Shown here in pieces: positions 3,516-64,000 of a stretch of DNA of 64,000 nucleotides. The stretch's first letter is position 1; every line of letters starts with the position of its first letter. Both the position numbers and the translations under genes were made by a program. The notes below the pieces were generated by a model, which was not told the DNA's origin, searched no databases, and worked only from the letters and a program-made list of their open reading frames with translations. Origin of the DNA: Brevibacillus laterosporus (GTDB lineage: Bacteria; Bacillota; Bacilli; Brevibacillales; Brevibacillaceae); NCBI GenBank assembly GCA_007833815.1, contig CP033464.1:2722001-2786000 (forward strand), written 5' to 3'.

Positions 3516-6500
3516 ATGAACAAACCGACATTGCAAGAGCAGCTGGCACGAAAAATATTGATACTCGACGGGGCAATGGGAACGATGCTACAGCAGGCTA
3601 ATCTCACAGCGGACGATTTTGGCGGTGAGGAATATGAAGGCTGTAATGAGCTGTTAAACGTAACAAGACCAGATGTCATTCGGCATATTCATGCCACGTA
3701 TTTTGAGGCAGGAGCTGACATTGTAGAAACCAACACATTTGGATCAACCGATATTGTTCTCGCTGATTACGACATAGCGGATCGAGATTATGAACTCAAT
3801 TTGGCTGCGGCACGTATTGCTAAAGAAGTAGCAGATGAATGTAGCACAGAGGAGTGGCCGCGTTATGTTGCAGGCTCCATGGGGCCTACTACTAAAACCC
3901 TTTCTTTAACAGGTGGCGTTACATTTGAGCAATTAATACATGCATACTATCGCCAGACAAAAGCTTTGATGGAAGGTGGCGTCGATTTACTACTATTGGA
4001 AACCTCTCAGGATACTTTGAACGTAAAAGCTGGTGGTATTGGCATACGTCAAGCCTTTGAAGAGCTTGGCTATGAACTTCCAATCATGATCTCCGGTACA
4101 ATCGAGCCAATGGGAACGACGCTGGCAGGACAAAACATTGAGGCTTTTTATGTGTCGATTGAGCATCTTCGCCCTATCACCATTGGTCTGAATTGTGCGA
4201 CAGGCCCTGAATTTATGCGAGACCATTTACGTACCTTATCTGACCTGGCCTTATGCGGAGTTAGTTGTTATCCCAATGCAGGACTTCCTGATGAGAATGG
4301 TCACTACCATGAATCACCTCAAGGCTTAGCAATGAAAATGAAAGGATTTGCTGAAAAGGGCTGGCTTAACATAGCGGGTGGGTGTTGTGGTACCACACCT
4401 GAACATATTCGTGCGCTACATACAGCGTTGCGCGATATTACACCTCGTGAAAATAAACAGTACCATGTCACTGCTGTATCCGGTATTGAGGTGTTATATG
4501 TAGAGGATGACAACCGTCCTATTTTTGTGGGAGAACGCACCAATGTTATCGGCTCCAAAAAGTTCCGTGACTTGATTGCGGCTGGCCAATTTGAGGAAGG
4601 CTCAGACATTGCTCGGGCGCAAGTAAAGCGGGGAGCGGCTGTTATAGATATCTGCTTAGCTGACCCTGATCGTGAAGAGTACGAGGATATGGAAAAATTC
4701 CTTCCGTTCGTGAGCCGCAAAGTAAAAGCACCGCTGATGATTGATTCCACAGATAAAAAAGTACTGGAGTTAGGTTTAAAGTACTCCCAGGGGAAGGCAA
4801 TCATAAATTCGATTAATCTTGAAGATGGTTTAGATCGTTTTGAAGAGGTTGTACCACTTATTCATAAATATGGAGCGGCTGTCGTGGTTGGTACCATTGA
4901 TGAGCCGGGTATGGCTATTACTCGGGAGCGCAAGCTGGAAGTAGCTACACGTTCCTACGATATATTGGTGAATCAGTATGGTGTCAATCCGCAAGATATT
5001 ATTTTTGATGCCCTAGTGTTCCCAGTTGGAACAGGAGACGAGCAATACATTGGTTCAGCAAAAGAAACGGTAGAAGGGATTCGCTTAATTAAACAGAAGT
5101 TTCCTCTATGTAAACAGATTCTTGGTGTCAGCAACGTCTCATTTGGCTTACCACCTGCAGGTCGTGAAGTGCTGAATGCAGTCTTTTTATACCATACAAC
5201 GTTAGCCGGCCTTGATTATGCGATTGTTAACACAGAAAAACTAGAGCGCTATGCTTCAATTTCTGAAGAAGAACGCAAGTTAGCAGAGGATTTGTTATTT
5301 CATACAAATGACCAAACATTAGCGACGTTTACTGATTTTTATCGCCAGAAAAAGAAAGAGGTTGTAAAAGAAGTTTCTAACCTGTCGCTAGAAGAACGTT
5401 TAGCCAATTACGTAGTAGAAGGCTCCAAGGATGGATTGACTACTGATTTAGCCCTCGCTTTGGAAAAATATGTGCCTCTTGATATCATTAACGGTCCACT
5501 TATGAGAGGAATGGAAGAAGTAGGTCGTCTGTTTAACGCAAACCAATTAATTGTAGCAGAAGTGTTGCAGAGTGCAGAGGTAATGAAGGCGTCGGTTGCC
5601 TTTCTGGAACCGCACATGGAAAAGTCCGAGTCAGCGATGAAAGGGAAAATCTTGTTAGCTACTGTGAAAGGGGATGTCCACGATATTGGTAAAAACCTAG
5701 TGGAAATCATCTTGTCCAACAATGGCTATGAGGTCGTTAATTTAGGAATTAAAGTGGCGCCGGAGCAATTGATTGCTGCATGTCGTCAAGAAAAGCCAGA
5801 TGCGATTGGTCTATCTGGTCTCTTAGTTAAATCAGCGCAACAGATGGTCATTACTGCGCAGGATTTGCGAAGTTCTGGCATCGACGTTCCGCTGATGGTT
5901 GGGGGGCAGCCCTTACTCGTAAATTCACCACAAACCGAATTGCACCTGAATACGAAGGTCTTGTTTTATACGCAAAGGATGCAATGGATGGACTGGATCT
6001 TGCTAATAAATTACAGGATCCACAAGCGCGCACCAAGCTAGTGGATGAATTACAAGCACAAGTGACGGCTAATTTAGTCCAAGCAGAAGAAAAGGCTAGC
6101 GAATCTGTAGTTGTTACACAGACTGAGATCATTCGTTCCACGACAAGCACTACAACACCGATTTATGTCGCTCCTGATTTGGAGCGCCATGTCTTGCGTG
6201 ATTACCCAATTAACTATTTGCGTCCTTATATAAATTTACGTATGTTGCTCGGAAAGCATCTAGGTATCAAGGGCAACGTAGACAAATTATTAAAATCGGG
6301 TGATAAAAAAACGACCGAATTGTATGAAATAGTGGACGATTTGCTGAATGAAGCAATACGTAATCAGATTTTGCAAGCGAGTGGAATGTATCGTTTCTTC
6401 CCAGCGCAATCTTCTGGAAATGACATCCTTATCTATGATCCGAAAGATCACACGAAGGTGCTAGAACGTTTCACCTTCCCACGTCAACCGCAAGACCCTC

Positions 6501-47702: not shown

Positions 47703-49269
47703 AAATTGAATCAATTTCATAAAGGCTTTTTCCAAAAATAATTAGACTATCCCTACGGGATTAATGCTGTTTTTTTGAAAAAATTAAGCTGCTACTTTCA
47801 TCCTACTTGCCAGTTCCTACGAATTCGATCCACTGCTAACTTGGATGCATTATAAACAAGAGTAACCAAGTCAAAATGGACTTTTGCCCTCTTTCCTGTG
47901 CGATATCGGACATTGTTTAGCTGAAAGAACTCCTTCAAATAAGCATGTACTCGCTCTACGGCTGTTCTCTGGTCATATAGTTCTTCCCACGTTTTTGTTC
48001 CTCTGGCTGGCGCGGTGTACTTTCGAAGATCGGTTTCAGCCTTAATTTTATAGACTTTTTGACAGAGAGAATCCTGATTCAATGGACAGTCTTTACATTC
48101 TTTTGGCCGTACAAATTTCAACGTTTTGTACTTCTTATCATAACTGTCGTAACGATAAGAGCATTCTCGGACACAAGTTGGCGCAAAATGTGAATCGAAT
48201 CCAACCATTTCTCCTTCATTCCGCTTGTTGTAAGCAATAATCGCTTGTGCGTTCATTCGTCCGATTTGTTGATAGATCGGGACATAGTCATATCCCGCAT
48301 CCATGATTGCATATCGCATGTGATTGGGAAGGACAGTTTGAATTCCTTTCAACAAAGGAATCGCTGCTTTCCCATCGTTCATACTTCCAGAGGACATGAG
48401 GGAGCAAAGAATATATTGACTTTTCGTACTGACTGCAAGATGAGCTTTGTATCCAAACCAAAACATGTTCTTTCCATCACTATTTTTCTTTATTCCCCAA
48501 GCAGGTTTGATAGGAACTTGGTACCGTAGGTCCTCCAACGTCACATCCAGTTGAGCTGCAATGGTTTTTTCATATAAGGACTTCTGGGCTTCCTTTTCTT
48601 GCTTTTGCTTGTCGTAGATATCTTTTTCTGCTTTTGATTTACGTCCACGTTTTTTCAATTCTGGTTTCGTCTTTTTTTCTTTTGCCACACCTCGATCACG
48701 GGATTCAAAATGGGTTGCATCGATGGCAATTGCTTCATCGCCTATGAACCCTTCCTGTATCGCTTGCAACAGTAACTTGTCTTGGACTTTATTGAGGTGT
48801 GCTGTTTCAGAAAGCTTCTGAACGAGACGAGAGTACGATGCCTCGGAAGGAAGATTGTCAGAAAACAGAAAACCGCATTCCATTCGAAAGATAAAGTCAT
48901 GTTTTAGTCGTTTTCGTAAATCTTTCACAGTGGGAATTCGTTCTACGATTCGAGCGACCAGAGAATATAGCATGGCAGCATAATTCAACTCGGTAGGAGC
49001 ACCATAGATCGACTTTTTGGAAATAGAGAAAAGAAGCGGTTCAATGTCAAGAGTGGAGAAAATAGCCTCAAAACGTTTGGGAGGTTCTAAGTCGAATAAT
49101 TCCTGTATATCAAATAGGCTTCCTTGTTTTATAATAGACATTGGGAGTCACCACCACCTCTTAAGTTTGGGTCGCACTTAACTTATTAGAGATTTGGGGA
49201 GGTACTCCTTTTTCTATGCTCAAAAACTCTTGGGCCCGTAGGGCTCTGATTTATGAAATTGATTCAATT
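47703..49269 (-). mobile_element. Complete IS1182-family-like insertion sequence
   Basis: About 1.57 kb bounded by inverted ends: AAATTGAATCAATTTCATAA at 47703 and, at 49250-49269, the complementary TTTATGAAATTGATTCAATT. The ends match over about 20 bases and each contains a small palindrome. A single intact transposase gene fills the element. Target duplication could not be fixed because the flanks (CAATTAAT on both sides) overlap the ends. Confidence 0.8.
47798..49141 (-). CDS. IS1182-family transposase
   Basis: A 447-aa DDE transposase without frame damage. The N-terminal region (NYAAMLYSLVARIVERIPTV, LRKRLKHDFIFRMECGFLFS) and the catalytic block with AIDATHFESRDRG (first Asp near 157), later AIMDAGYDY and the C-terminal RTAVERVHAYLKEFFQLNNV (Glu) followed by RYRTGKRAKVHFDLVTLVYN fit IS1182. 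A Cys-rich region near 345-385 (PTCVRECSYRYD, CKDCPLNQDSLCQKV) may bind zinc. ATG 49141 has GAGGTGGTGG upstream. Being intact, it may be recently active. Confidence 0.9.
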   Translation of the reverse strand: MSIIKQGSLFDIQELFDLEPPKRFEAIFSTLDIEPLLFSISKKSIYGAPTELNYAAMLYSLVARIVERIPTVKDLRKRLKHDFIFRMECGFLFSDNLPSEASYSRLVQKLSETAHLNKVQDKLLLQAIQEGFIGDEAIAIDATHFESRDRGVAKEKKTKPELKKRGRKSKAEKDIYDKQKQEKEAQKSLYEKTIAAQLDVTLEDLRYQVPIKPAWGIKKNSDGKNMFWFGYKAHLAVSTKSQYILCSLMSSGSMNDGKAAIPLLKGIQTVLPNHMRYAIMDAGYDYVPIYQQIGRMNAQAIIAYNKRNEGEMVGFDSHFAPTCVRECSYRYDSYDKKYKTLKFVRPKECKDCPLNQDSLCQKVYKIKAETDLRKYTAPARGTKTWEELYDQRTAVERVHAYLKEFFQLNNVRYRTGKRAKVHFDLVTLVYNASKLAVDRIRRNWQVG

Positions 49270-56554: not shown

Positions 56555-56628
56555 GCGGGTGTAGTTCAATGGTAGAACTCCAGCCTTCCAAGCTGGTCGC
56601 GTGGGTTCGATTCCCATCACCCGCTCCA
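56555..56628 (+). tRNA. tRNA-Gly (TCC), integration site of the downstream island
   Basis: Acceptor GCGGGTG/CACCCGC, anticodon arm CCAGC-CTTCCAA-GCTGG (anticodon TCC), T-arm GGGTTCGATTCCC, discriminator T and encoded CCA. Its 3' 49 bases recur exactly at 62211-62259, which marks it as the attachment site of the island. Confidence 0.95.
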
Positions 56629-57560
56629 TAGATTTTTTCTCTAATTGCCTTGTATATCAAGGCTTTTTTTATTTTTATCTCTCTGTATACTTTTCTCATA
56701 ATCCCACCTAGCGTCTTTCTCATTTAGAGAGAGGCGTTTTTATTTGCCCGTATTAAGAAGGAATAGGAAATATGGAAGAGGCGGTCATTAACATTGTACT
56801 CCAACAAGGCCCATTTGCGGCTCTGTTTGTATGGTTACTATTTTCTACTAAGAAAGAGGGAAGAGAGAACGTGAAGCCAGATTGGTTTAGTAATTGCAGT
56901 CGGTGCATGGCTAAAGAATTAAGAGTGGTACCCAAATACACTTATTCCACTGGCTATCGCAACGCTAATCTGTTTGGTGGAGACTTTCTTGAAGCAGGAA
57001 AATTAGCATTCATTGAGGCAACTGCCGCAATTGGTATCCATTCGGGTTTGAAGAAACTACCCCTTGATTTTCCGGTAGTGCTGGATATAGAAACAACGAA
57101 AGGATTACAAGCGCCACAGATAACCGCGTTTTGTCTAGCGTTTCTTACTCACATCAAGGCTCGCACAGATAAAACCCCTATCCTTTAACAGGGGCATCTT
57201 TTGCTAAGACTTACTTAAATAAAGAGCTTGCTGGCTTCCCATTGTGGGTTGCTGATTATGGAACAAATCAGCCTATGGGAAACCCAATATGGAGCCGTTG
57301 GGCGGTATTCCAGCATTCCGATTGTGGGAAAGTGGCTGGTATCAAAGGCAACGTAGACATGAACTGGATGGAAAAAGACTTTTGGAATGCAAATATGAAG
57401 GGGAAACAACTGTGGATAAAATGTTAGCAGATGAACTTATCTTGGTTTTGAAAACACAATGGAAAGTTAGTGACGCAATGGGAATGAAGGAGCAAGCGAA
57501 ATACCTTGGTGAACTTGCCGATCGGGTAAGGATTGCTAGTGGGCAGGAGCCTCAAAACGT
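56580..57560 (+). repeat. Direct repeat copy 1 (about 980 bp), left boundary of the island
   Basis: From CCAGCCTTCCAAGCTGG in the tRNA-Gly anticodon arm to near 57560 the sequence recurs at 62211-63190 with roughly 98% identity by eye. It includes the tRNA 3' half (attL, 56580-56628), two terminators and a broken holin/lysozyme module. Copy 1 and copy 2 differ by scattered substitutions and one base deleted in copy 2 near 62636. Confidence 0.95.
56646..56672 (+). terminator. Terminator of the tRNA-Leu/tRNA-Gly unit
   Basis: GCCTTG-TATA-TCAAGGC stem-loop followed by TTTTTTT. A second hairpin (GCGTCTTTCTC/GAGAGAGGCG then T-run) lies at about 56711-56742. Both recur in the second repeat copy (62277-62303 and onward). 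Confidence 0.85.
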
Positions 57561-57564
57561 ATAA
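56772..57564 (+). pseudogene. Phage lysis relic, copy 1: holin start fused to broken GH25 lysozyme
   Basis: The frame opens like a BhlA/UviB-type holin peptide (MEEAVINIVLQQGPFAALFV, then TKKEGRENVK). It then passes into sequence with the GH25 lysozyme features LDFPVVLDIETTKG (catalytic Asp-x-Glu pair) and CLAFLTHIKA, with no proper lysozyme N-terminus. It stops at 57188. One base out of frame the lysozyme resumes: GASFAKTYLNKELAGFPLWV, then DYGTNQPMGNPIWSRWAVFQ and GNVDMNWMEKDFW. A last segment (to 57564) encodes the small C-terminal domain KYLGELADRVRIASGQEP. The fusion and the frameshift are both shared with copy 2, so the module was already dead before duplication. Confidence 0.8.
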
Positions 57565-57851: not shown

Positions 57852-59141
57852 ATGGGAAGGAATGAAACTTTAATTTATACATCACTGGGCGATCTGATTA
57901 AAAAGAAACGCGAAAAAATCGGGATGAGTTTATCCGAGTTATCAAGATTAACACGAATTAGCAAAGGTGTTTTACACTATATTGAAACTGGTGAAACGAA
58001 ACGACCGGAATTAAAAACTCTTAAACCAATTGCGGATGTATTATCACTACCCTATAAAGAAATTGTTGAACATTACATAGAAGTGGAACAACGAGTAGAG
58101 GCATTGTATAAGCTACTCGCAGAAGCCAATGAAATATCTAACATTCCCTTTATATCTAAAGTAGCTCGAAAAATTCTCGAATCCCCTAGTGAGGATACCT
58201 ATACATCATTGCAACGCCTATACGATCACATCGTAATCTTAACAAGCGATGAAATAAAATTGCTACTGTCAAAAGTTATTACTAAATATGCCAGACAGCA
58301 TGGAGTACCACAGTTTGTAGCTAATGGATTATTTCAACAATATATGATCGAAAGAGAAGATTTAAAAAGATTGGAAGAGTCATTAAGAGACGGAGAAGAA
58401 ATACTGCATTATACAGACTTTCTATCTCGTGAAGATACAATAACTTATTATTATCGTATGGCGCTTCACGCTTATAATATTAAGCGATATGAAAAATGTA
58501 TTAAGTTCGGTCAAAAAGGATTTATAGAAGATACATCATCAAATGAACTTAAAGAAAGGGTAGCTTTGGTAATGTGTCACTCATACATACATCTGAACGA
58601 CCATGAATCTGCTGAAGAATGTGTTAATAATTTTGTAAAGATGGGTTATCAATTTGTTATAGATCATTCTAAACCAATCAGAGCAAATATATATTTAAAA
58701 AGAGAGGATTATAATTCAGCACTCCCTCTTCTGCGAGAATGTTTGGACGAAGCGACGGTGGATACCTATCTTCACAGATTGAACGATCTATTAGAAGTAC
58801 TATCTTTATTAAATGATACAGATTCCATTTATCACATTCTCACATGTATAGAAGAAAAGAAAATATTCATTGATGTGAACACTCCATATAAATATCGTGA
58901 ATTAGGCAGGTATCATAAATTAAAAGGAGAGTACGAAATTAAGACTAGAAAATTTGATGAAGGTATTACCACCCTATTGGCTAGTATTCTTAATTACGAA
59001 AAAATCAGTGCCTATGAAGAAATCAATCAATGTGTAGGTATTATTTTGAATTGTCAATCATTTAATCAGAAACATATTAATACGGATATTTTGGGTAATT
59101 TGGTATATATTTATAATAAGATTAATAAAGTAAATGTATAA
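57852..59141 (+). CDS. XRE-TPR transcriptional regulator, RRNPP-type peptide receptor
   Basis: A 429-aa protein with an N-terminal HTH (about 10-70: LGDLIKKKREKIGMSLSELS, then RISKGVLHYIETGETKRPEL). The rest is all helical, in TPR-like repeats (ITYYYRMALHAYNIKRYEKC, ERVALVMCHSYIHLNDHESA, then KPIRANIYLKREDYNSALPL). This is the architecture of RRNPP receptors such as PlcR, NprR and AimR. The decisive context is a 42-aa secreted pro-peptide gene starting 14 bases after the stop. ATG 57852 has GAAGGCGGGG upstream. The AT-rich composition and the island location indicate transfer. The likely target is the pair of matching promoters at 59373 and 60128. An ordinary XRE repressor with a chance neighbour is the alternative. 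Confidence 0.85.
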   Translation: MGRNETLIYTSLGDLIKKKREKIGMSLSELSRLTRISKGVLHYIETGETKRPELKTLKPIADVLSLPYKEIVEHYIEVEQRVEALYKLLAEANEISNIPFISKVARKILESPSEDTYTSLQRLYDHIVILTSDEIKLLLSKVITKYARQHGVPQFVANGLFQQYMIEREDLKRLEESLRDGEEILHYTDFLSREDTITYYYRMALHAYNIKRYEKCIKFGQKGFIEDTSSNELKERVALVMCHSYIHLNDHESAEECVNNFVKMGYQFVIDHSKPIRANIYLKREDYNSALPLLRECLDEATVDTYLHRLNDLLEVLSLLNDTDSIYHILTCIEEKKIFIDVNTPYKYRELGRYHKLKGEYEIKTRKFDEGITTLLASILNYEKISAYEEINQCVGIILNCQSFNQKHINTDILGNLVYIYNKINKVNV

Positions 59142-59154
59142 GGGAGTTGAAATC

Positions 59155-59283
59155 ATGAAAAAGTTATTATTATCTTTGCTTTTCTTATCGGTACTACTTC
59201 CTTCTTTTTTATCTGAACCAGAAAAAAACAAATTAGAATATCAAGCTTATGCACAAGCATATTTAGATGATGCAGGACATTGA
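59155..59283 (+). CDS. Phr/NprX-type signalling pro-peptide, 42 aa
   Basis: Not long enough for standard gene callers. ATG 59155 has AAGGGAGTTG eight bases upstream. It starts MKKLLLSLLFLSVLLPSFLS, a canonical Sec signal, followed by the polar EPEKNKLEYQAYAQAYLDDA and GH at the C-terminus. No membrane helix follows the signal, so the C-terminal part would be released. Size, signal, position directly after an XRE-TPR receptor and a following terminator match cognate peptides of RRNPP systems, where a C-terminal 5-10-mer is re-imported (often by Opp). The active peptide probably lies within the last dozen residues, but the exact ends cannot be told. Confidence 0.82.
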   Translation: MKKLLLSLLFLSVLLPSFLSEPEKNKLEYQAYAQAYLDDAGH

Positions 59284-59302
59284 AACAATTATTTTTTTCA
59301 TT

Positions 59303-59331
59303 AAGAACGCTTAAATGGCGTTCTTTTTTTA
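59303..59331 (+). terminator. Terminator after the receptor/pro-peptide operon
   Basis: AAGAACGC pairs with GGCGTTCTT (one offset) followed by TTTTTT, about 20 bases past the pro-peptide stop. Confidence 0.85.
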
Positions 59332-59372
59332 TTGCACATTATTAATGAGATAGTTTGTCACAATTTGAAAAT

Positions 59373-59421
59373 CGTTCTAGTTGCAAAAAGTGGATAGATA
59401 TTCCAGAACGGCTGGTACAAT
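59373..59421 (+). promoter_or_regulatory. Dyad-containing promoter, copy 1 (upstream of Spo0E-like gene)
   Basis: CGTTCTA (59373-59379) and CCAGAACG (59403-59410) form a dyad spanning 38 bases. Five bases later comes a -10-like TACAAT (59416-59421). No good -35 is present at 17 bases, so an activator or special regulation is likely. The same arrangement with identical spacing occurs at 60128. Confidence 0.65.
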
Positions 59422-59456
59422 TACAAATAAGCGATAGAAAGGAGGGATTAATATTA

Positions 59457-59477
59457 GTGTTCATTCTGGAAAACTAA
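59457..59477 (+). other. Six-codon open frame behind a strong ribosome site, copy 1
   Basis: AAAGGAGG (59438-59445) is followed by GTG and the codons for MFILEN, then TAA. The parallel promoter at 60128 drives an equally placed six-codon frame. A leader-peptide role is possible; translation is unproven. Confidence 0.35.
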
Positions 59478-59481
59478 AAAA

Positions 59482-59518
59482 GGACATTCTCCATTGCTTC
59501 CACGCTACGAGAATGTCC
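59482..59518 (+). other. Perfect 10-bp hairpin before the Spo0E-like gene
   Basis: GGACATTCTC pairs perfectly with GAGAATGTCC around a 17-base loop. No T-run follows, so it is not a plain terminator. It lies between the six-codon frame and the Spo0E-like start, which lacks its own ribosome site. Confidence 0.6.
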
Positions 59519-59542
59519 CTACCACCTTGAATAACATTATCT

Positions 59543-59770
59543 GTGCCTCAAATTAATTCTATCATTCCTTCGTGGGCAGATGAAGTACAAAATACCCAAT
59601 ATGAAAATGAATTATTGGACGCTACAGAAGCACTACGGCAACAATTAATTCAGTTGTATTGTAAAGAAGGCTCTTTCTCAAGTGAAAAGGTTGTGAAAAA
59701 GAGCCAAGAATTAGATAAGTATATCGTCAAAATTCAAAAAATGGGAAAAGATAAAAAATACTCAATATAA
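59543..59770 (+). CDS. Spo0E-family aspartyl-phosphate phosphatase-like protein, 75 aa
   Basis: The region LRQQLIQLYCKEGSFSSEKV followed by KKSQELDKYIVKIQKM is the Spo0E pattern: two helices with the signature S-x-x-LD-x-x-I (here SQELDKYI). Known Spo0E, YisI and YnzD remove phosphate from Spo0A and so delay sporulation. The first 20 residues (PQINSIIPSWADEVQNTQYE) are an extra N-terminal part. The only in-frame start is GTG 59543 (an in-frame stop lies 18 bases upstream) and it has no ribosome site, so translation may depend on the upstream six-codon frame or hairpin. It follows the quorum-sensing operon in the island, hinting that the element tunes host sporulation. Confidence 0.75.
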   Translation: MPQINSIIPSWADEVQNTQYENELLDATEALRQQLIQLYCKEGSFSSEKVVKKSQELDKYIVKIQKMGKDKKYSI

Positions 59771-59900: not shown

Positions 59901-59960
59901 ATGTCTCTAATATGGGCTAACCGACATCGAGATATGGGTTTTAAAGATAAAAAAAATTAG
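59901..59960 (+). other. Short open frame with good ribosome site, 19 codons or frameshifted longer form
   Basis: TAGGAGGTTTATTC precedes ATG 59901; the frame reads MSLIWANRHRDMGFKDKKN and stops at 59960 right after a run of eight A. One base out of frame it would continue as a very basic peptide (KLEKRGKSKKGLFVDNS, or alternatively IRKTRKIKKRVVCRQQLINE). The A8 run could hide an indel. No family is recognised. Confidence 0.35.
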
Positions 59961-60127: not shown

Positions 60128-60176
60128 CGTTCTATTTGTAAAAATCTTACAGATATTCTAGAACGCCTGATACAAT
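60128..60176 (+). promoter_or_regulatory. Dyad-containing promoter, copy 2 (upstream of secreted protein)
   Basis: CGTTCTA (60128-60134) and TAGAACG (60159-60165) form a perfect seven-base dyad over 38 bases, with TACAAT (60171-60176) five bases later. Every distance equals that in copy 1. The flanks (TTGTCA upstream, AGTAGAAAGGAGGGG downstream) are also similar. The arms start 31 bases apart, about three helical turns, as for a dimeric DNA-binding protein. Confidence 0.7.
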
Positions 60177-60307: not shown

Positions 60308-61174
60308 ATGAAAAAATCAAAGGTAATAAAAAGTGTATTTGTTTTGACAGCAACCTTTATTTTGTCCTCACCAATAAATTTCGTTGGTACAGTCAAGGCG
60401 GCAGATGCAGGTATAGACGGTAAATCGTTTGCTGAAAATATTCTTCAACTTGATGAACAGGAACTAAAAGAAGATGCCACTTCATTAACAAATCAGGTTG
60501 ATCGTATGACAGATGAAGAGTTTGATAAGTTTATTGTCACATTCACGAAAGAGTTTAAAGGAACTCCTGATGAGGCAAAACAAGAACTAAGCTTATTGGA
60601 CATTGAATACTCTACTAAAGAAGTAGAACATTCTTCTATAGCATCATCTAAAAAGGCAGAACATCCTTCTGTAGCATCATCGGATTTGGAAGCGGCAGAT
60701 TTAGAATTTTCAATCACCCAGTCTAAGCGTGGAAAAGACTCATTTTATCGGTTAATCTCAACTTTTGGTGCAAAATATGCTGTTTTCGATCACGGATCAT
60801 ATGATCTAGTATCAATTGAATGGGACCCAGATGTTGCTTCCTATTACGAAGCAGTAGTAGGAGATGAAAAGAGAGCCTCTTTAAGAGATGGAAGTAAAAG
60901 AAAACAAGGTATCTACATGTTTAATGTATACGATTACAGAGAAGATTTTGATACCTATGCGGCAGTATATGTTGAGCCTAAAGTTAAAGGTAAATGGTTA
61001 GAATACGGTTCGAAATATACTCATACTTATGTAACTAAAGGGTCTGGTTCAAGTGGACAAGCATCTTTCGAGTTTGGGAGAGGAAGTATTGGGACATCAT
61101 TGTCCTACACAGTAAACCCATCTAGTAGTGAAAGTTCTTGGGAAAAATGGGATGATGGAGCGGTTAAATTTTAA
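60308..61174 (+). CDS. Secreted protein of unknown function, 288 aa
   Basis: Has a signal peptide (KKSKVIKSVFVLTATFILSS, cleavage near residue 32 after VKA). A helical acidic region (about 35-105) contains DEQELKEDATSLTNQVDRMT and a short repeat with SSIASSKKAEHPSVASS. The C-terminal part (about 120-288) looks beta-rich: FSITQSKRGKDSFYRLISTF, YVEPKVKGKWLEYGSKYTHT, then GTSLSYTVNPSSSESSWEKW. I do not recognise the family. The tail style (repeated Ser/Thr, Gly, aromatic) resembles the partial protein at 63309-64000 in a general way. It has its own regulated promoter (60128) and an extended -10 at 60273; GGGAGAG precedes ATG 60308. It could be an effector of the quorum-sensing island. Confidence 0.7.
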   Translation: MKKSKVIKSVFVLTATFILSSPINFVGTVKAADAGIDGKSFAENILQLDEQELKEDATSLTNQVDRMTDEEFDKFIVTFTKEFKGTPDEAKQELSLLDIEYSTKEVEHSSIASSKKAEHPSVASSDLEAADLEFSITQSKRGKDSFYRLISTFGAKYAVFDHGSYDLVSIEWDPDVASYYEAVVGDEKRASLRDGSKRKQGIYMFNVYDYREDFDTYAAVYVEPKVKGKWLEYGSKYTHTYVTKGSGSSGQASFEFGRGSIGTSLSYTVNPSSSESSWEKWDDGAVKF

Positions 61175-61191
61175 ATAAAAGTGATAATGTA

Positions 61192-61219
61192 AAAGGAGGC
61201 ATCTAATGATGTCTCCTTT
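61192..61219 (+). terminator. Hairpin between the secreted protein and lipoprotein genes
   Basis: AAAGGAGGCATC pairs with GATGTCTCCTTT with one G-U pair around a four-base loop. It lacks a T-run, so read-through into the lipoprotein gene is likely. Confidence 0.6.
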
Positions 61220-61255
61220 GCGGGTAATTTATTCAAAGTAACAGGAGGGTAAAGA

Positions 61256-61804
61256 ATGATGCGAAAGTTTATATTGATAATTAGCATATTCATACTAACT
61301 TCTTGTGGTAATCAAACAGTAGAAACAAACTATGCAACAAATACAACATTAGTGCATATTTTTAATCGTGGGTACTCTGTTTCCTTATTTAACTTTGGCG
61401 AGATTGTAAACAAGCTTTCTGAAGTTAAGACTAAGGATGATATTATATATATTAATGGAATGGTTGATATTTATTTAACCAATAATTCTCTATTTATGGT
61501 GTCAATGATTGTTTCGAGTGATAAAAATGGGGAAAGTAAAGTAGTTGATCCATTTATTCGAGAAGATATAGTAGACATGTTGCATAACCAAATATCGTTT
61601 ATGAAACAGATAAAGGAATTGTTGTTGAACAAGGACAGTCTACATAATATAAAAGGGCAGTCAAAATATTATAAGGATATTTATAAGGCAGAGAGAGAAT
61701 TAAATATGGACATTCCAAAAGAACAGGATGAACTTACGAAATATAAATTGTCTATAGAGCAAATGAATTCATTACTGACAAAAAGCATAGTTGAGGGTAG
61801 TTGA
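61256..61804 (+). CDS. Putative lipoprotein, 182 aa
   Basis: Begins MMRKFILIISIFILTSCGNQ with a lipobox LTSC, so the mature protein should be anchored by Cys 17. The rest is polar with a central DIIYINGMVDIYLTNNSLFM and a long helical end (SFMKQIKELLLNKDSLHNIK, later LNMDIPKEQDELTKYKLSIE). The family is not recognised. ATG 61256 has CAGGAGGGTAAAG upstream. It follows the secreted protein in the same direction. An immunity or receptor role toward that protein is conceivable but unproven. Confidence 0.7.
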   Translation: MMRKFILIISIFILTSCGNQTVETNYATNTTLVHIFNRGYSVSLFNFGEIVNKLSEVKTKDDIIYINGMVDIYLTNNSLFMVSMIVSSDKNGESKVVDPFIREDIVDMLHNQISFMKQIKELLLNKDSLHNIKGQSKYYKDIYKAERELNMDIPKEQDELTKYKLSIEQMNSLLTKSIVEGS

Positions 61805-62210
61805 CTTATACAAAATGAATGAGAAAATAATTGTCTAACCACAGACCCCTGTGTAAAAAGGTACAAGTCGTGACGTTAAAAATAACGAAATTTTGTCGAG
61901 TTTCTTCATTATAATAGCTGTTCAAATTAATACATCGAATACAGGTAACTTAGCTGTCTTTGCTTATCAAAATGGAAGATAACAAATTGCAGTGTTGAAT
62001 GCTAGAACGTGAACAAGCTAGAATAACAAAAATCCCTCCTCGACTGAGAAGGGAAGTTATGTTTTAAGGGGGGACGATGAGGACGAATTGGGGACGAATT
62101 CTATCAGTAATGCCCCAAAATTATCTTAGATTAACATAAATAGATATTAGTAAAACCTTTGATAAATCAGGTTTTATCAGAAAATAACATACATGATCAG
62201 GAGCGTACTA
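61805..62210. other. Right end of the island without intact genes
   Basis: AT-rich, no open frame with a ribosome site. It contains a lone TAGAACG half-site (62003-62009), a weak hairpin CCCTCCTC/GAGAAGGG (62035-62054) and, at about 62075-62120, the + strand GGACGAATT twice ending in codons for GDEFYQ and a stop. This could be the last trace of an integrase C-terminus near the attachment site, as integrase genes usually lie here, but the evidence is slight. Confidence 0.35.
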
Positions 62211-63190
62211 CCAGCCTTCCAAGCTGGTCGCGTGGGTTCGATTCCCATCACCCGCTCCATAGATTTTTTCTCTAATTGCCTTGTATATCAAGGCTTTTTT
62301 TATTTTTATCTCTCTGTATACTTTTCTCATAATCCCACCTAGCGTCTTTCTCATTTAGAGAGAGGCGTTTTTATTTGCCCGTATTAAGAAGGAAGAGGAA
62401 ATATGGAAGAGGCGGTCATTAACATTGTACTCCAACAAGGCCCATTTGCGGCTCTGTTTGTATGGTTACTATTTTCTACTAAGAAAGAGGGAAGAGAGAA
62501 CGTGAAGCCAGATTGGTTTAGTAATTGCAGTCGGTGCATAGCTAAAGAATTAAGAGTGGTACCCAAATACACTTATTCCACTGGCTATCGCAACGCTTAT
62601 CTGTTTGGTGGAGACTTTCTTGAAGCAGGAAAATTAGATTCATTGAGGCTACTGCCGCAATTGGTATCCATTCGGGCTTGAAGAAACTACCCCTTGATTT
62701 TCCGGTGGTGCTAGATATAGAAACAACGAAAGGATTAAAAGCGCCACAGATTACAACGTTTTGTTTAGCGTTTCTTACTCACATCAAGGCTCGCACAGAT
62801 AAAACCCCTATCCTTTAACAGGGGCATCTTTTGCTAAGACTTACTTAAATAAAGAGCTTGCTGGCTTCCCATTGTGGGTTGCTGATTATGGAACAAATCA
62901 GCCTATGGGAAACCCAATATGGAGCCGTTGGGCGGTATTCCAGCATTCCGATTGTGGGAAAGTGGCTGGTATCAAAGGCAACGTAGACATGAACTGGATG
63001 GAAAAAGACTTTTGGAATGCAAATATGAAGGGGAAACAACTGTGGATAAAATGTTAGCAGATGAACTTATCTTGGTTTTGAAAACACAATGGAAAGTTAG
63101 TGACGCAATGGGAATGAAGGAGCAAGCGAAATACCTTGGTGAACTTGCTGATAGGGTACGCGTTGCTAGTGGTCAGGAGCCTCAGAATAA
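62211..63190 (+). repeat. Direct repeat copy 2 (about 980 bp), right boundary of the island
   Basis: Begins exactly with the tRNA-Gly 3' half (attR, 62211-62259), which here lacks the 5' half of a tRNA and so is not a gene. It then repeats the terminators and the dead lysis module of copy 1. The two copies lie 5631 bases apart, giving the length of the island. Confidence 0.95.
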
Positions 63191-63308: not shown

Positions 63309-64000
63309 TTATAAATCTTTGAAGGTTTCTTCGATTGTTCCAGTATTGAAAGTAACATTGGAATCAAGATTTCTGTAATAGTATACATAATGGTTATGTT
63401 GAAACTGGATTCTTCCTTTTCTATTTGTTACACGAACTCCGGGTTCCCATACAAAATTATTTTTTGCTGTCTTGGTTCCCAAAGCTATATCCACATTCCA
63501 TTTAGCATAGTTATCCGATAGACTGGATTGGTCAGTAATATTTGCTGATTTCGTATTAAACGTCCAACTTATTGAGGGAACCAAACCGGATAGTCCAACA
63601 GATGCAGACGAATCGGTATCAGTAGTGTATGGTCCATAAGAACGAATGGTCTGTGTATCATCGGCTAATCCAGTATGTTTATAACGCATTGACAATTGAC
63701 GTGTTTGATAATCATTTCTTGGCTCCGACTGATTAAAATACTTAACATCCCACACGGAAACTTTTTTCTTATCTAATGTGGAGGTTCCTTTTCTTGTATA
63801 GTCAACGTTGCTTGTATATACTCCAGCTAATTCATCTCGTCTTTCATCTCTAATTCGATACGTGTAAGATTCGGAGCGAGTATCCTCATCAGAAGAGATA
63901 GAATTTTGATTTTCAGTTTCTTCAACTTTGTCTTTAATATGTGTACGGATTTCATCTAAAGGTACTTCTTCTACCTGATCAAAAATGTAATCTACACGAA
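63309..64000 (-). CDS. Unknown probably secreted protein, N-terminal part outside window
   Basis: An open minus-strand frame enters from the right edge (reading VDYIFDQVEEVPLDEIRTHI) and runs to a stop at 63309, so at least 230 residues. The first visible part is charged and helical (KDKVEETENQNSISSDEDTR). The rest appears beta-rich: SSASVGLSGLVPSISWTFNT, NYAKWNVDIALGTKTAKNNF, WEPGVRVTNRKGRIQFQHNH and a tail FNTGTIEETFKDL. No known motif. The general layout (acidic helices, then a Ser/Gly/aromatic beta region) resembles the secreted protein at 60308-61174, though I cannot claim homology by eye. The start lies outside the window. Confidence 0.6.
   Translation of the reverse strand, partial: RVDYIFDQVEEVPLDEIRTHIKDKVEETENQNSISSDEDTRSESYTYRIRDERRDELAGVYTSNVDYTRKGTSTLDKKKVSVWDVKYFNQSEPRNDYQTRQLSMRYKHTGLADDTQTIRSYGPYTTDTDSSASVGLSGLVPSISWTFNTKSANITDQSSLSDNYAKWNVDIALGTKTAKNNFVWEPGVRVTNRKGRIQFQHNHYVYYYRNLDSNVTFNTGTIEETFKDL

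Follow-up and report, generated by a model that had tools for sequence, protein, structure and literature searches.

A 64,000-nucleotide stretch of Brevibacillus laterosporus DNA (contig CP033464.1, positions 2,722,001 to 2,786,000; referred to here as the window) carries, behind a tRNA-Gly gene, genes for a receptor, a short pro-peptide, and a Spo0E-like protein. The identity of this locus as an Alo-type (AloR-AloP) quorum-sensing system of the RRNPP family is well supported. We consider it likely that the locus is an Alo cassette of a decayed prophage in which the free receptor activates transcription, the peptide shuts it off, and the Spo0E-like protein delays sporulation. Underlying this are the gene order, the domains, the conservation of the peptides, operator-like repeats, and leader, and the kinship to phages, all of them observed. 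New here are the survey of peptides among paralogues, the kinship of the receptor to viral contigs, the split inverted repeats, and a recurrent hairpin leader.

Receptor, pro-peptide, and Spo0E-like gene

The window receptor has the architecture of Alo receptors, with an N-terminal helix-turn-helix (HTH; Pfam HTH_3, E = 7.8e-8) and a C-terminal domain like tetratricopeptide repeats (TPR) according to Pfam and a structure model, and it was assigned to PHROGs family phrog_32768 (E = 4.2e-139). An initial annotation, made from the sequence alone, had proposed an RRNPP-type receptor; the structure model was TPR-like, and the absence of a TPR superhelix, which would have spoken against that proposal, was not observed. 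Fold searches returned NprR, Rap, and AimR among many unrelated TPR proteins, and in Foldseek PlcR (E = 2.1e-4), Rap (9.1e-4), and AimR (9.9e-4) all ranked behind LGN and others; such searches with a predicted structure indicate the fold class of the receptor only.

Homologues from Paenibacillus were 36 to 42% identical to the window receptor. The likeness to AloR13 of Paenibacillus polymyxa was drawn from its published description, and the sequences compared were those of the Paenibacillus homologues, not that of AloR13 itself. The published AloR13 primer had no exact match in the genome contigs searched and none at three mismatches in two genomes. At three mismatches, 11 of 104 genomes contained matches, and none of the 8 loci inspected (3 others were not) was an AloR. 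The AloP13 fragment had no match among plasmids.

The genome that contains the window has 26 receptor matches, the window receptor included, and each of six genomes of the genus (this one among them) has between 7 and 26. Twenty of the 26 loci were inspected, with fragments L023, L027, L029, L031, L032, and L034 left out, and at 16 of the 20 a gene for a short peptide adjoins the end of the receptor. Some of these 16 receptors are broken or partial (internal stops in L017 and L022; L024 and L028 partial). Fourteen of the 16 peptides end in [DN]PG[HYF], one ends in NPQG, and the window copy ends in DAGH. At locus L030 (23% identity), the peptide is unlike the others and ends in APDW, and no peptide was seen at L025 or at fragments L026 and L033. 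Beyond this genome, 38 further loci were found; 37 of them (not L105) and two phages made up a set of 39, in which a script found a candidate peptide at 35 loci. Two of these (L099 and L102) were judged unconvincing, leaving 33 of 39. Because a peptide lies downstream at 16 of 20 and 33 of 39 loci, homologues that consistently lack it are not what is seen, and the pairing put forward in the initial annotation holds for most relatives of the receptor as well.

The pro-peptide of the window is encoded 13 bases 3' of the receptor gene. Its length of 42 aa falls within the Alo criterion of 32 to 50 aa, and its N terminus was judged by eye to be hydrophobic, as the same criterion asks. From the sequence, the mature signal is probably the last 5 to 7 residues.

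The Spo0E-like protein matched PF09388 at 46.5 bits (gathering score, 23), and its Spo0E domain is intact by profile. It contains an SQELD motif, which we take to be a Spo0E signature, and its target would be Spo0A. The start of the open reading frame (ORF) is doubtful. Receptors have Spo0E-like genes as neighbors in Brevibacillus, in Paenibacillus, and in two phages, and a Spo0E-like frame lies within 2.2 kb of the receptor at 22 of the 39 other loci, some contigs ending sooner.

Operator-like repeats and a hairpin leader

The two promoters of the cassette are copies of each other (103 nt, 79% identity). Common to both is a split inverted repeat, CGTTCTA-N24-TAGAACG, that ends directly 5' of the −10 box. 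The perfect repeat occurs at one place in the genome (60128), and the one-mismatch class occurs at two places, one of which is 59373. Left and right half-sites agree better within than between promoters, with 31, 8, and 1 of 2000 permutations reaching the observed mean at lengths of 6, 7, and 8, respectively, in a position-constrained swap test of 23 of 32 promoters that were chosen by us and in which related promoters are not independent (L043, L124, L125, L020, L028, L033, L047, L057, and L061 were left out). AimR is known to use a long-spaced inverted operator, and the half-site pattern would similarly fit a receptor dimer that bridges two distant half-sites. No description of an Alo operator was found in the literature searched, and the word “motif” is absent from the main text of PMC7425212.

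Between the first promoter and its gene lies a leader that comprises a Shine-Dalgarno-like AAGGAGG, a hairpin (H1), the stretch CCACCTTGA, and a second hairpin (H2). Leaders were sought in 35 sources; L013 yielded none, and L122, L053, and L064 (no H1-like hairpin) were excluded. The resulting alignment holds 31 copies, three of them placed by hand (L036, L010, and L011); it does not include L126, L127, or the leader behind the second window promoter. A Spo0E-like frame, in some cases broken, follows 29 copies, and another gene follows the other two (L132 and L151). Standard pairs filled 84.0% of pair cells compared with at most 47.8% in slid controls, and changes on both sides were seen at 10 pairs compared with at most 7; part of this excess is expected because one of the aligned sequences served as the template for the structure. 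On three measures (paired-cell share, covariation score, and cells changed on both sides), none of 500 shuffles reached the observed value. The number of further standard pair types did not favor the structure (17, compared with 17.7 in shuffles, 393 of 500 being as high). Of the 11 pairs in H1, two do not form in 13 and 16 of the 31 sequences, and the outermost pair of H2 does not form in 23.

H1 reads GGACATTCTC/GAGAATGTCC in the window and GGCGTTCC/GGAACGCC in most copies. Folding z-scores were −3.19 for the window, −4.94 for L016, and −3.52 for L151, and the L124 leader folded no better than its shuffles (z = −1.02). Inspection by eye showed a weak H2 in the window and none in L132 or L151. 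The sequence CCACCTT could pair either with AAGGAGG or within H2. Rfam identified only two tRNAs between 56000 and 63999, with a tmRNA match below the cutoff, and at eight paralogue loci returned only RAGATH-25, far below the cutoff; the hairpin leader itself had no Rfam match in these nine sources. We found no description of the leader hairpins in the literature searched.

Two coding functions were considered for the leader. A type I toxin was rejected; four leader peptides had no Pfam match. A TGA readthrough or arrest peptide, corresponding to a small frame (ATT...PPP-TGA) in the spo0E frame of many copies, is less favored. The readthrough test used 21 copies anchored on TTGAG, CTGAG, or TTAAG before [CAG]AAC, a set that excludes the window copy, L057, L060, and the phages. 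Upstream of the stop, the frame was interrupted in 1 of 21 copies (other frames, 19 and 21), and downstream of it in 3 of 21 (other frames, 12 and 10), both of which favor an open frame. Arguing against coding, substitutions were spread nearly evenly over codon positions (121/115/133 upstream and 39/53/46 downstream), the putative start codon varied, and the frame relation differed in phage Sundance, L057, and L060. We therefore prefer a structured RNA to a coding frame, although translation or readthrough may occur.

Some leaders have features of their own. Those of L132 and L151 could encode a near-identical 22-residue peptide, MF(K/I)ELIRDIFF(C/H)LFEEIMSLPP, with some synonymous changes as compared by hand. 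In phage SecTim467 (L066, approximately 4598 to 4774), the leader start (ATTAGCTTTTGT) runs straight in frame into the Spo0E-like protein; unlike the chromosomal copies, this region has no hairpins and no stop.

The island at tRNA-Gly and its relatives

As the initial annotation had stated, the receptor, pro-peptide, terminator, and Spo0E-like gene lie together in an island at the 3' end of tRNA-Gly. In self-BLAST, 36 nt of this 3' end recur at 62225-62260 and 74740-74775, and ARAGORN called no tRNA at these att-like repeats. A 979-column repeat (98.0%) that combines the tRNA end with holin and lysin remnants opens both units of the island. Synteny with relatives G004 and G005 resumes at 74883 and 74894, 4.5 and 2.7 kb past their tRNA-Gly, compared with 18 kb here, and neither has a receptor match in between. 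Relative G003 has a different receptor at this site, starting 366 bases downstream of the tRNA. G003 is probably strain LMG 15441, whose plasmid record has a receptor at coordinates identical to those on contig C2 of G003. The lysis remnants matched Pfam BhlA (E = 7.7e-6), GH25 (E = 0.0062, below the cutoff), and a PHROGs endolysin (E = 2.3e-4), and fragments matching terminase, portal, and prohead protease lie farther into the island. Neither inspection of the 18-kb island by eye nor Pfam on 7 of 18 ORFs of one part revealed an integrase-like ORF. The mobility that had been proposed for the pair applies only to its descent, given the lack of a visible integrase-like ORF and the fragmentary phage genes. 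A decayed prophage carrying the Alo cassette as cargo is the best explanation of the island.

Relatives of the receptor were found in five phage records (three phages), in six viral contigs, one of them as long as Sundance, and in seven plasmid records (five from Brevibacillus and two from Paenibacillus; best identity, 43.5%). In a tree of 49 rows of our choosing (L095 and L098 were dropped for stops), the nearest neighbor of the window receptor is L120, a viral-contig copy with 56% identity and support of 100/97. L120 adjoins an Amidase_2 gene. Downstream of this copy come a Spo0E-like gene of its own and an unknown protein with a signal-like start. Phages Sundance and SecTim467 have the receptor, peptide, and Spo0E-like gene, and phage Jenst has a short receptor gene only. 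Passages of PMC4909266 name the Spo0E genes of these phages, and the peptide system does not appear in those passages.

The features of the cassette are collected in Table 1. The protein encoded at 60308 had a best Pfam match of E = 0.023, below the cutoff, and no NCBIfam or PHROGs match at the thresholds used; the putative lipoprotein at 61256 had no family match above the cutoff in Pfam or NCBIfam. DNA at 61139-61542 is 82% identical to the island of G003 at the same tRNA.

TABLE 1 Features of the Alo cassette and its borders (window positions)
Feature	Position	Strand	Basis or remark
Intact tRNA-Gly (tcc)	56555..56628	+	ARAGORN; 3' end is the apparent attachment site
att-like repeat 1, tRNA-Gly 3' end	56594..56629	+	Self-BLAST
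Phage lysis module remnants	56772..57564	+	BhlA holin start fused to broken GH25 lysin pieces
AloR-type receptor, 429 aa, XRE HTH and TPR-like superhelix	57852..59141	+	ORF, Pfam, model, phrog_32768
AloP-type pro-peptide, 42 aa, C terminus AYLDDAGH	59155..59283	+	ORF, comparison with paralogues
Intrinsic terminator after peptide gene	59303..59331	+	By eye; similar hairpins behind paralogues' peptides
Operator-like repeat 1, CGTTCTA-N24-CAGAACG	59373..59410	+	Directly 5' of −10 box TACAAT (59416-59421); putative binding site
Leader with Shine-Dalgarno-like AAGGAGG (from 59439), hairpin H1 (59482-59491/59509-59518), and CCACCTTGA	59441..59525	+	Alignment, folding
Spo0E-like protein, 75 aa, SQELD motif	59543..59770	+	PF09388, E = 3.6e-12
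Operator-like repeat 2, CGTTCTA-N24-TAGAACG (perfect)	60128..60165	+	Directly 5' of −10 box TACAAT (60171-60176); putative binding site
288-aa protein with signal-like N terminus, first gene 3' of repeat 2	60308..61174	+	ORF
Putative lipoprotein, 182 aa	61256..61804	+	ORF
att-like repeat 2	62225..62260	+	Self-BLAST; inside direct repeat 62207-63184 of 56577-57554

Other features were seen in and around the island. A 19-codon ORF at 59901-59960 (MSLIWANRHRDMGFKDKKN) is an apparent remnant of a small ORF starting M-L-V/I-W-G/A that, by eye, lies downstream of several Alo loci and is often frameshifted. A 343-aa protein with a signal-like N terminus and no family match is encoded on the minus strand at 63309-64000 (whole gene, L067 1309-2340), and a 321-aa TPR protein without an HTH match lies in the same island beyond the window at 65424-66389 (L067 3424-4389). 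A 447-aa transposase-like ORF, recognized by eye at 47798-49141, has a closely similar copy elsewhere in the genome, next to the partial Alo locus L024.

Described systems, proposed regulation, and alternatives

According to Voichek et al. 2020 (PMC7425212), AloR-AloP pairs occur across the Paenibacillaceae, among them Brevibacillus; a genome can contain as many as 40 receptors, and spo0E-like genes lie directly 3' of 6 Alo systems in P. polymyxa and of 12 in P. terrae. The same study used a reporter in B. subtilis, where AloR13 activated the adjacent spo0E promoter and the peptide SHGRGG shut it off. Bernard et al. 2023 (PMC10075063) reported that plasmid DNA of B. laterosporus LMG 15441 carries AloR-AloP and “cluster 8” systems, and proposed that phage-borne RRNPP systems beside spo0E-like genes could steer host sporulation. 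The statement of the initial annotation that no described system has this combination therefore does not hold, peptide control of a neighboring spo0E-like gene having been demonstrated in P. polymyxa and a phage version proposed. A 2025 study (PMC12700828) placed AloR, subfamily 08, and AimR in one clan, with a DPG motif in the peptides of subfamily 08 and AimR; passages of a 2022 mBio paper on the family (PMC9765709) only name AloR.

The closest likeness is to AloR13-AloP13-Spo0E, which has the same order of HTH and TPR receptor, adjacent Sec pro-peptide, promoter, and Spo0E-like gene, many paralogues per genome, and Brevibacillus among its named carriers. In contrast, the window peptide ends in DAGH rather than being SHGRGG, and the prophage remnant, the second promoter copy, and the hairpin leader are found here. 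Judging from the published cloning primer, P. polymyxa spo0E probably has an ordinary AGGAGG 9 bases 5' of its start, unlike the window gene (PMC7425212). Cluster 8, or subfamily 08, consists of predicted systems with DPG peptides (PMC10075063, PMC12700828), comparable to the [DN]PG endings at 14 of our 20 loci, where N was counted for D; the window peptide itself ends in DAGH. Arbitrium (AimR-AimP) is likewise a phage-borne HTH and TPR receptor with a downstream peptide that down-regulates an adjacent gene (PMC7425212). Its output differs, a Spo0E-like protein standing here in place of aimX, and no link to lysogeny was seen. Rap-Phr, on Bacillus plasmids and phages, is also a mobile peptide system that acts on sporulation. 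Rap is not known to have a DNA-binding HTH and acts on the phosphorelay itself, whereas the window receptor has an HTH and a separate Spo0E-like protein would act.

In the mechanism that we propose, the Sec pathway would export the pro-peptide, which would be cut down to its short C-terminal end (about LDDAGH); this peptide would re-enter the cells and bind the receptor. Without peptide, the receptor would bind the split inverted repeat at the −10 box of both promoters, its presumed DNA targets, and activate both. Promoter 1 would then drive the structured leader and the Spo0E-like gene, and promoter 2, in its putative role, the secreted protein and the lipoprotein. The sign of this regulation, active without peptide and off with it, is borrowed from AloR13; the Spo0E-like protein would therefore be expected when carriers are few, when it would take phosphate off Spo0A and delay sporulation. 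With many carriers, the peptide would inactivate the receptor and sporulation would be released. A more speculative extension, which we hold only tentatively and think unlikely as a whole, is that each Brevibacillus receptor reads its own split operator, that the anti-Shine-Dalgarno CCACCTT of the target leader pairs with AAGGAGG or in H2, and that Alo systems are partly prophage cargo. Carriers would then be controlled at two levels, transcription through the peptide and translation through RNA structure, and a single signal would link the timing of host sporulation to the release of a secreted protein.

Several observations weigh against the proposed mechanism. No ribosome-binding site is visible upstream of the GTG of the window Spo0E-like gene, and at least 6 of 12 Spo0E-like copies in the same genome (L011, L012, L016, L017, L018, and L028) have no standard start codon; among the others, L010 is broken and some have odd starts. 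Since standard starts are missing, some Spo0E-like genes may be dead. The window peptide ends in DAGH, not DPGH. At up to two mismatches, the repeat was found at 22 places compared with 37 for a reversed control, i.e., it was rarer, and a position-free search found only 1 of 32 promoters with an inverted repeat reached by 5% or fewer of its shuffles, that repeat not being at the operator position.

The likelihoods that we assign to the explanations overlap, as two of the alternatives keep the Alo identity. In one of these, receptor and peptide are functional, the Spo0E-like gene is a decaying passenger, and the selected outputs are the leader RNA, the secreted protein, and the lipoprotein, so that the cassette would control a secreted effector and not sporulation. 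The missing start codons suit this explanation, as does the first gene past the promoter in G003 and G004, which encodes a secreted protein (C39-like by Pfam in G003) and not Spo0E, and so does the protein with a signal-like start that also follows in L120. We regard it as unlikely given the intact domain of the window protein and the retention of Spo0E-like genes beside receptors in two genera and two phages. Somewhat less probable is a receptor that represses and is relieved by peptide, opposite in sign to AloR13, with the Spo0E-like protein made when carriers are many. Repressors often bind between the −35 and −10 positions, and the right half of the repeat lies there; by eye, no good −35 box is present at the operator-bearing promoter, and AloR13, with a spo0E-like target likewise placed, is an activator that its peptide shuts off (PMC7425212). 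That the cassette is unexpressed debris of a dead prophage appears improbable: the lysis, terminase, portal, and protease genes around it are fragmentary and no integrase-like ORF was seen, but the receptor, the peptide, the terminator, and both operator-like repeats are intact amid these broken genes.

As an Alo cassette, the locus unites peptide-controlled spo0E-like genes, shown in P. polymyxa, with phage timing of host sporulation, which has been predicted. About 15 peptide-bearing paralogous loci in one genome, together with the phage copies, make the specificity of receptor, operator, and peptide directly comparable, and the split repeats provide concrete candidate sites.
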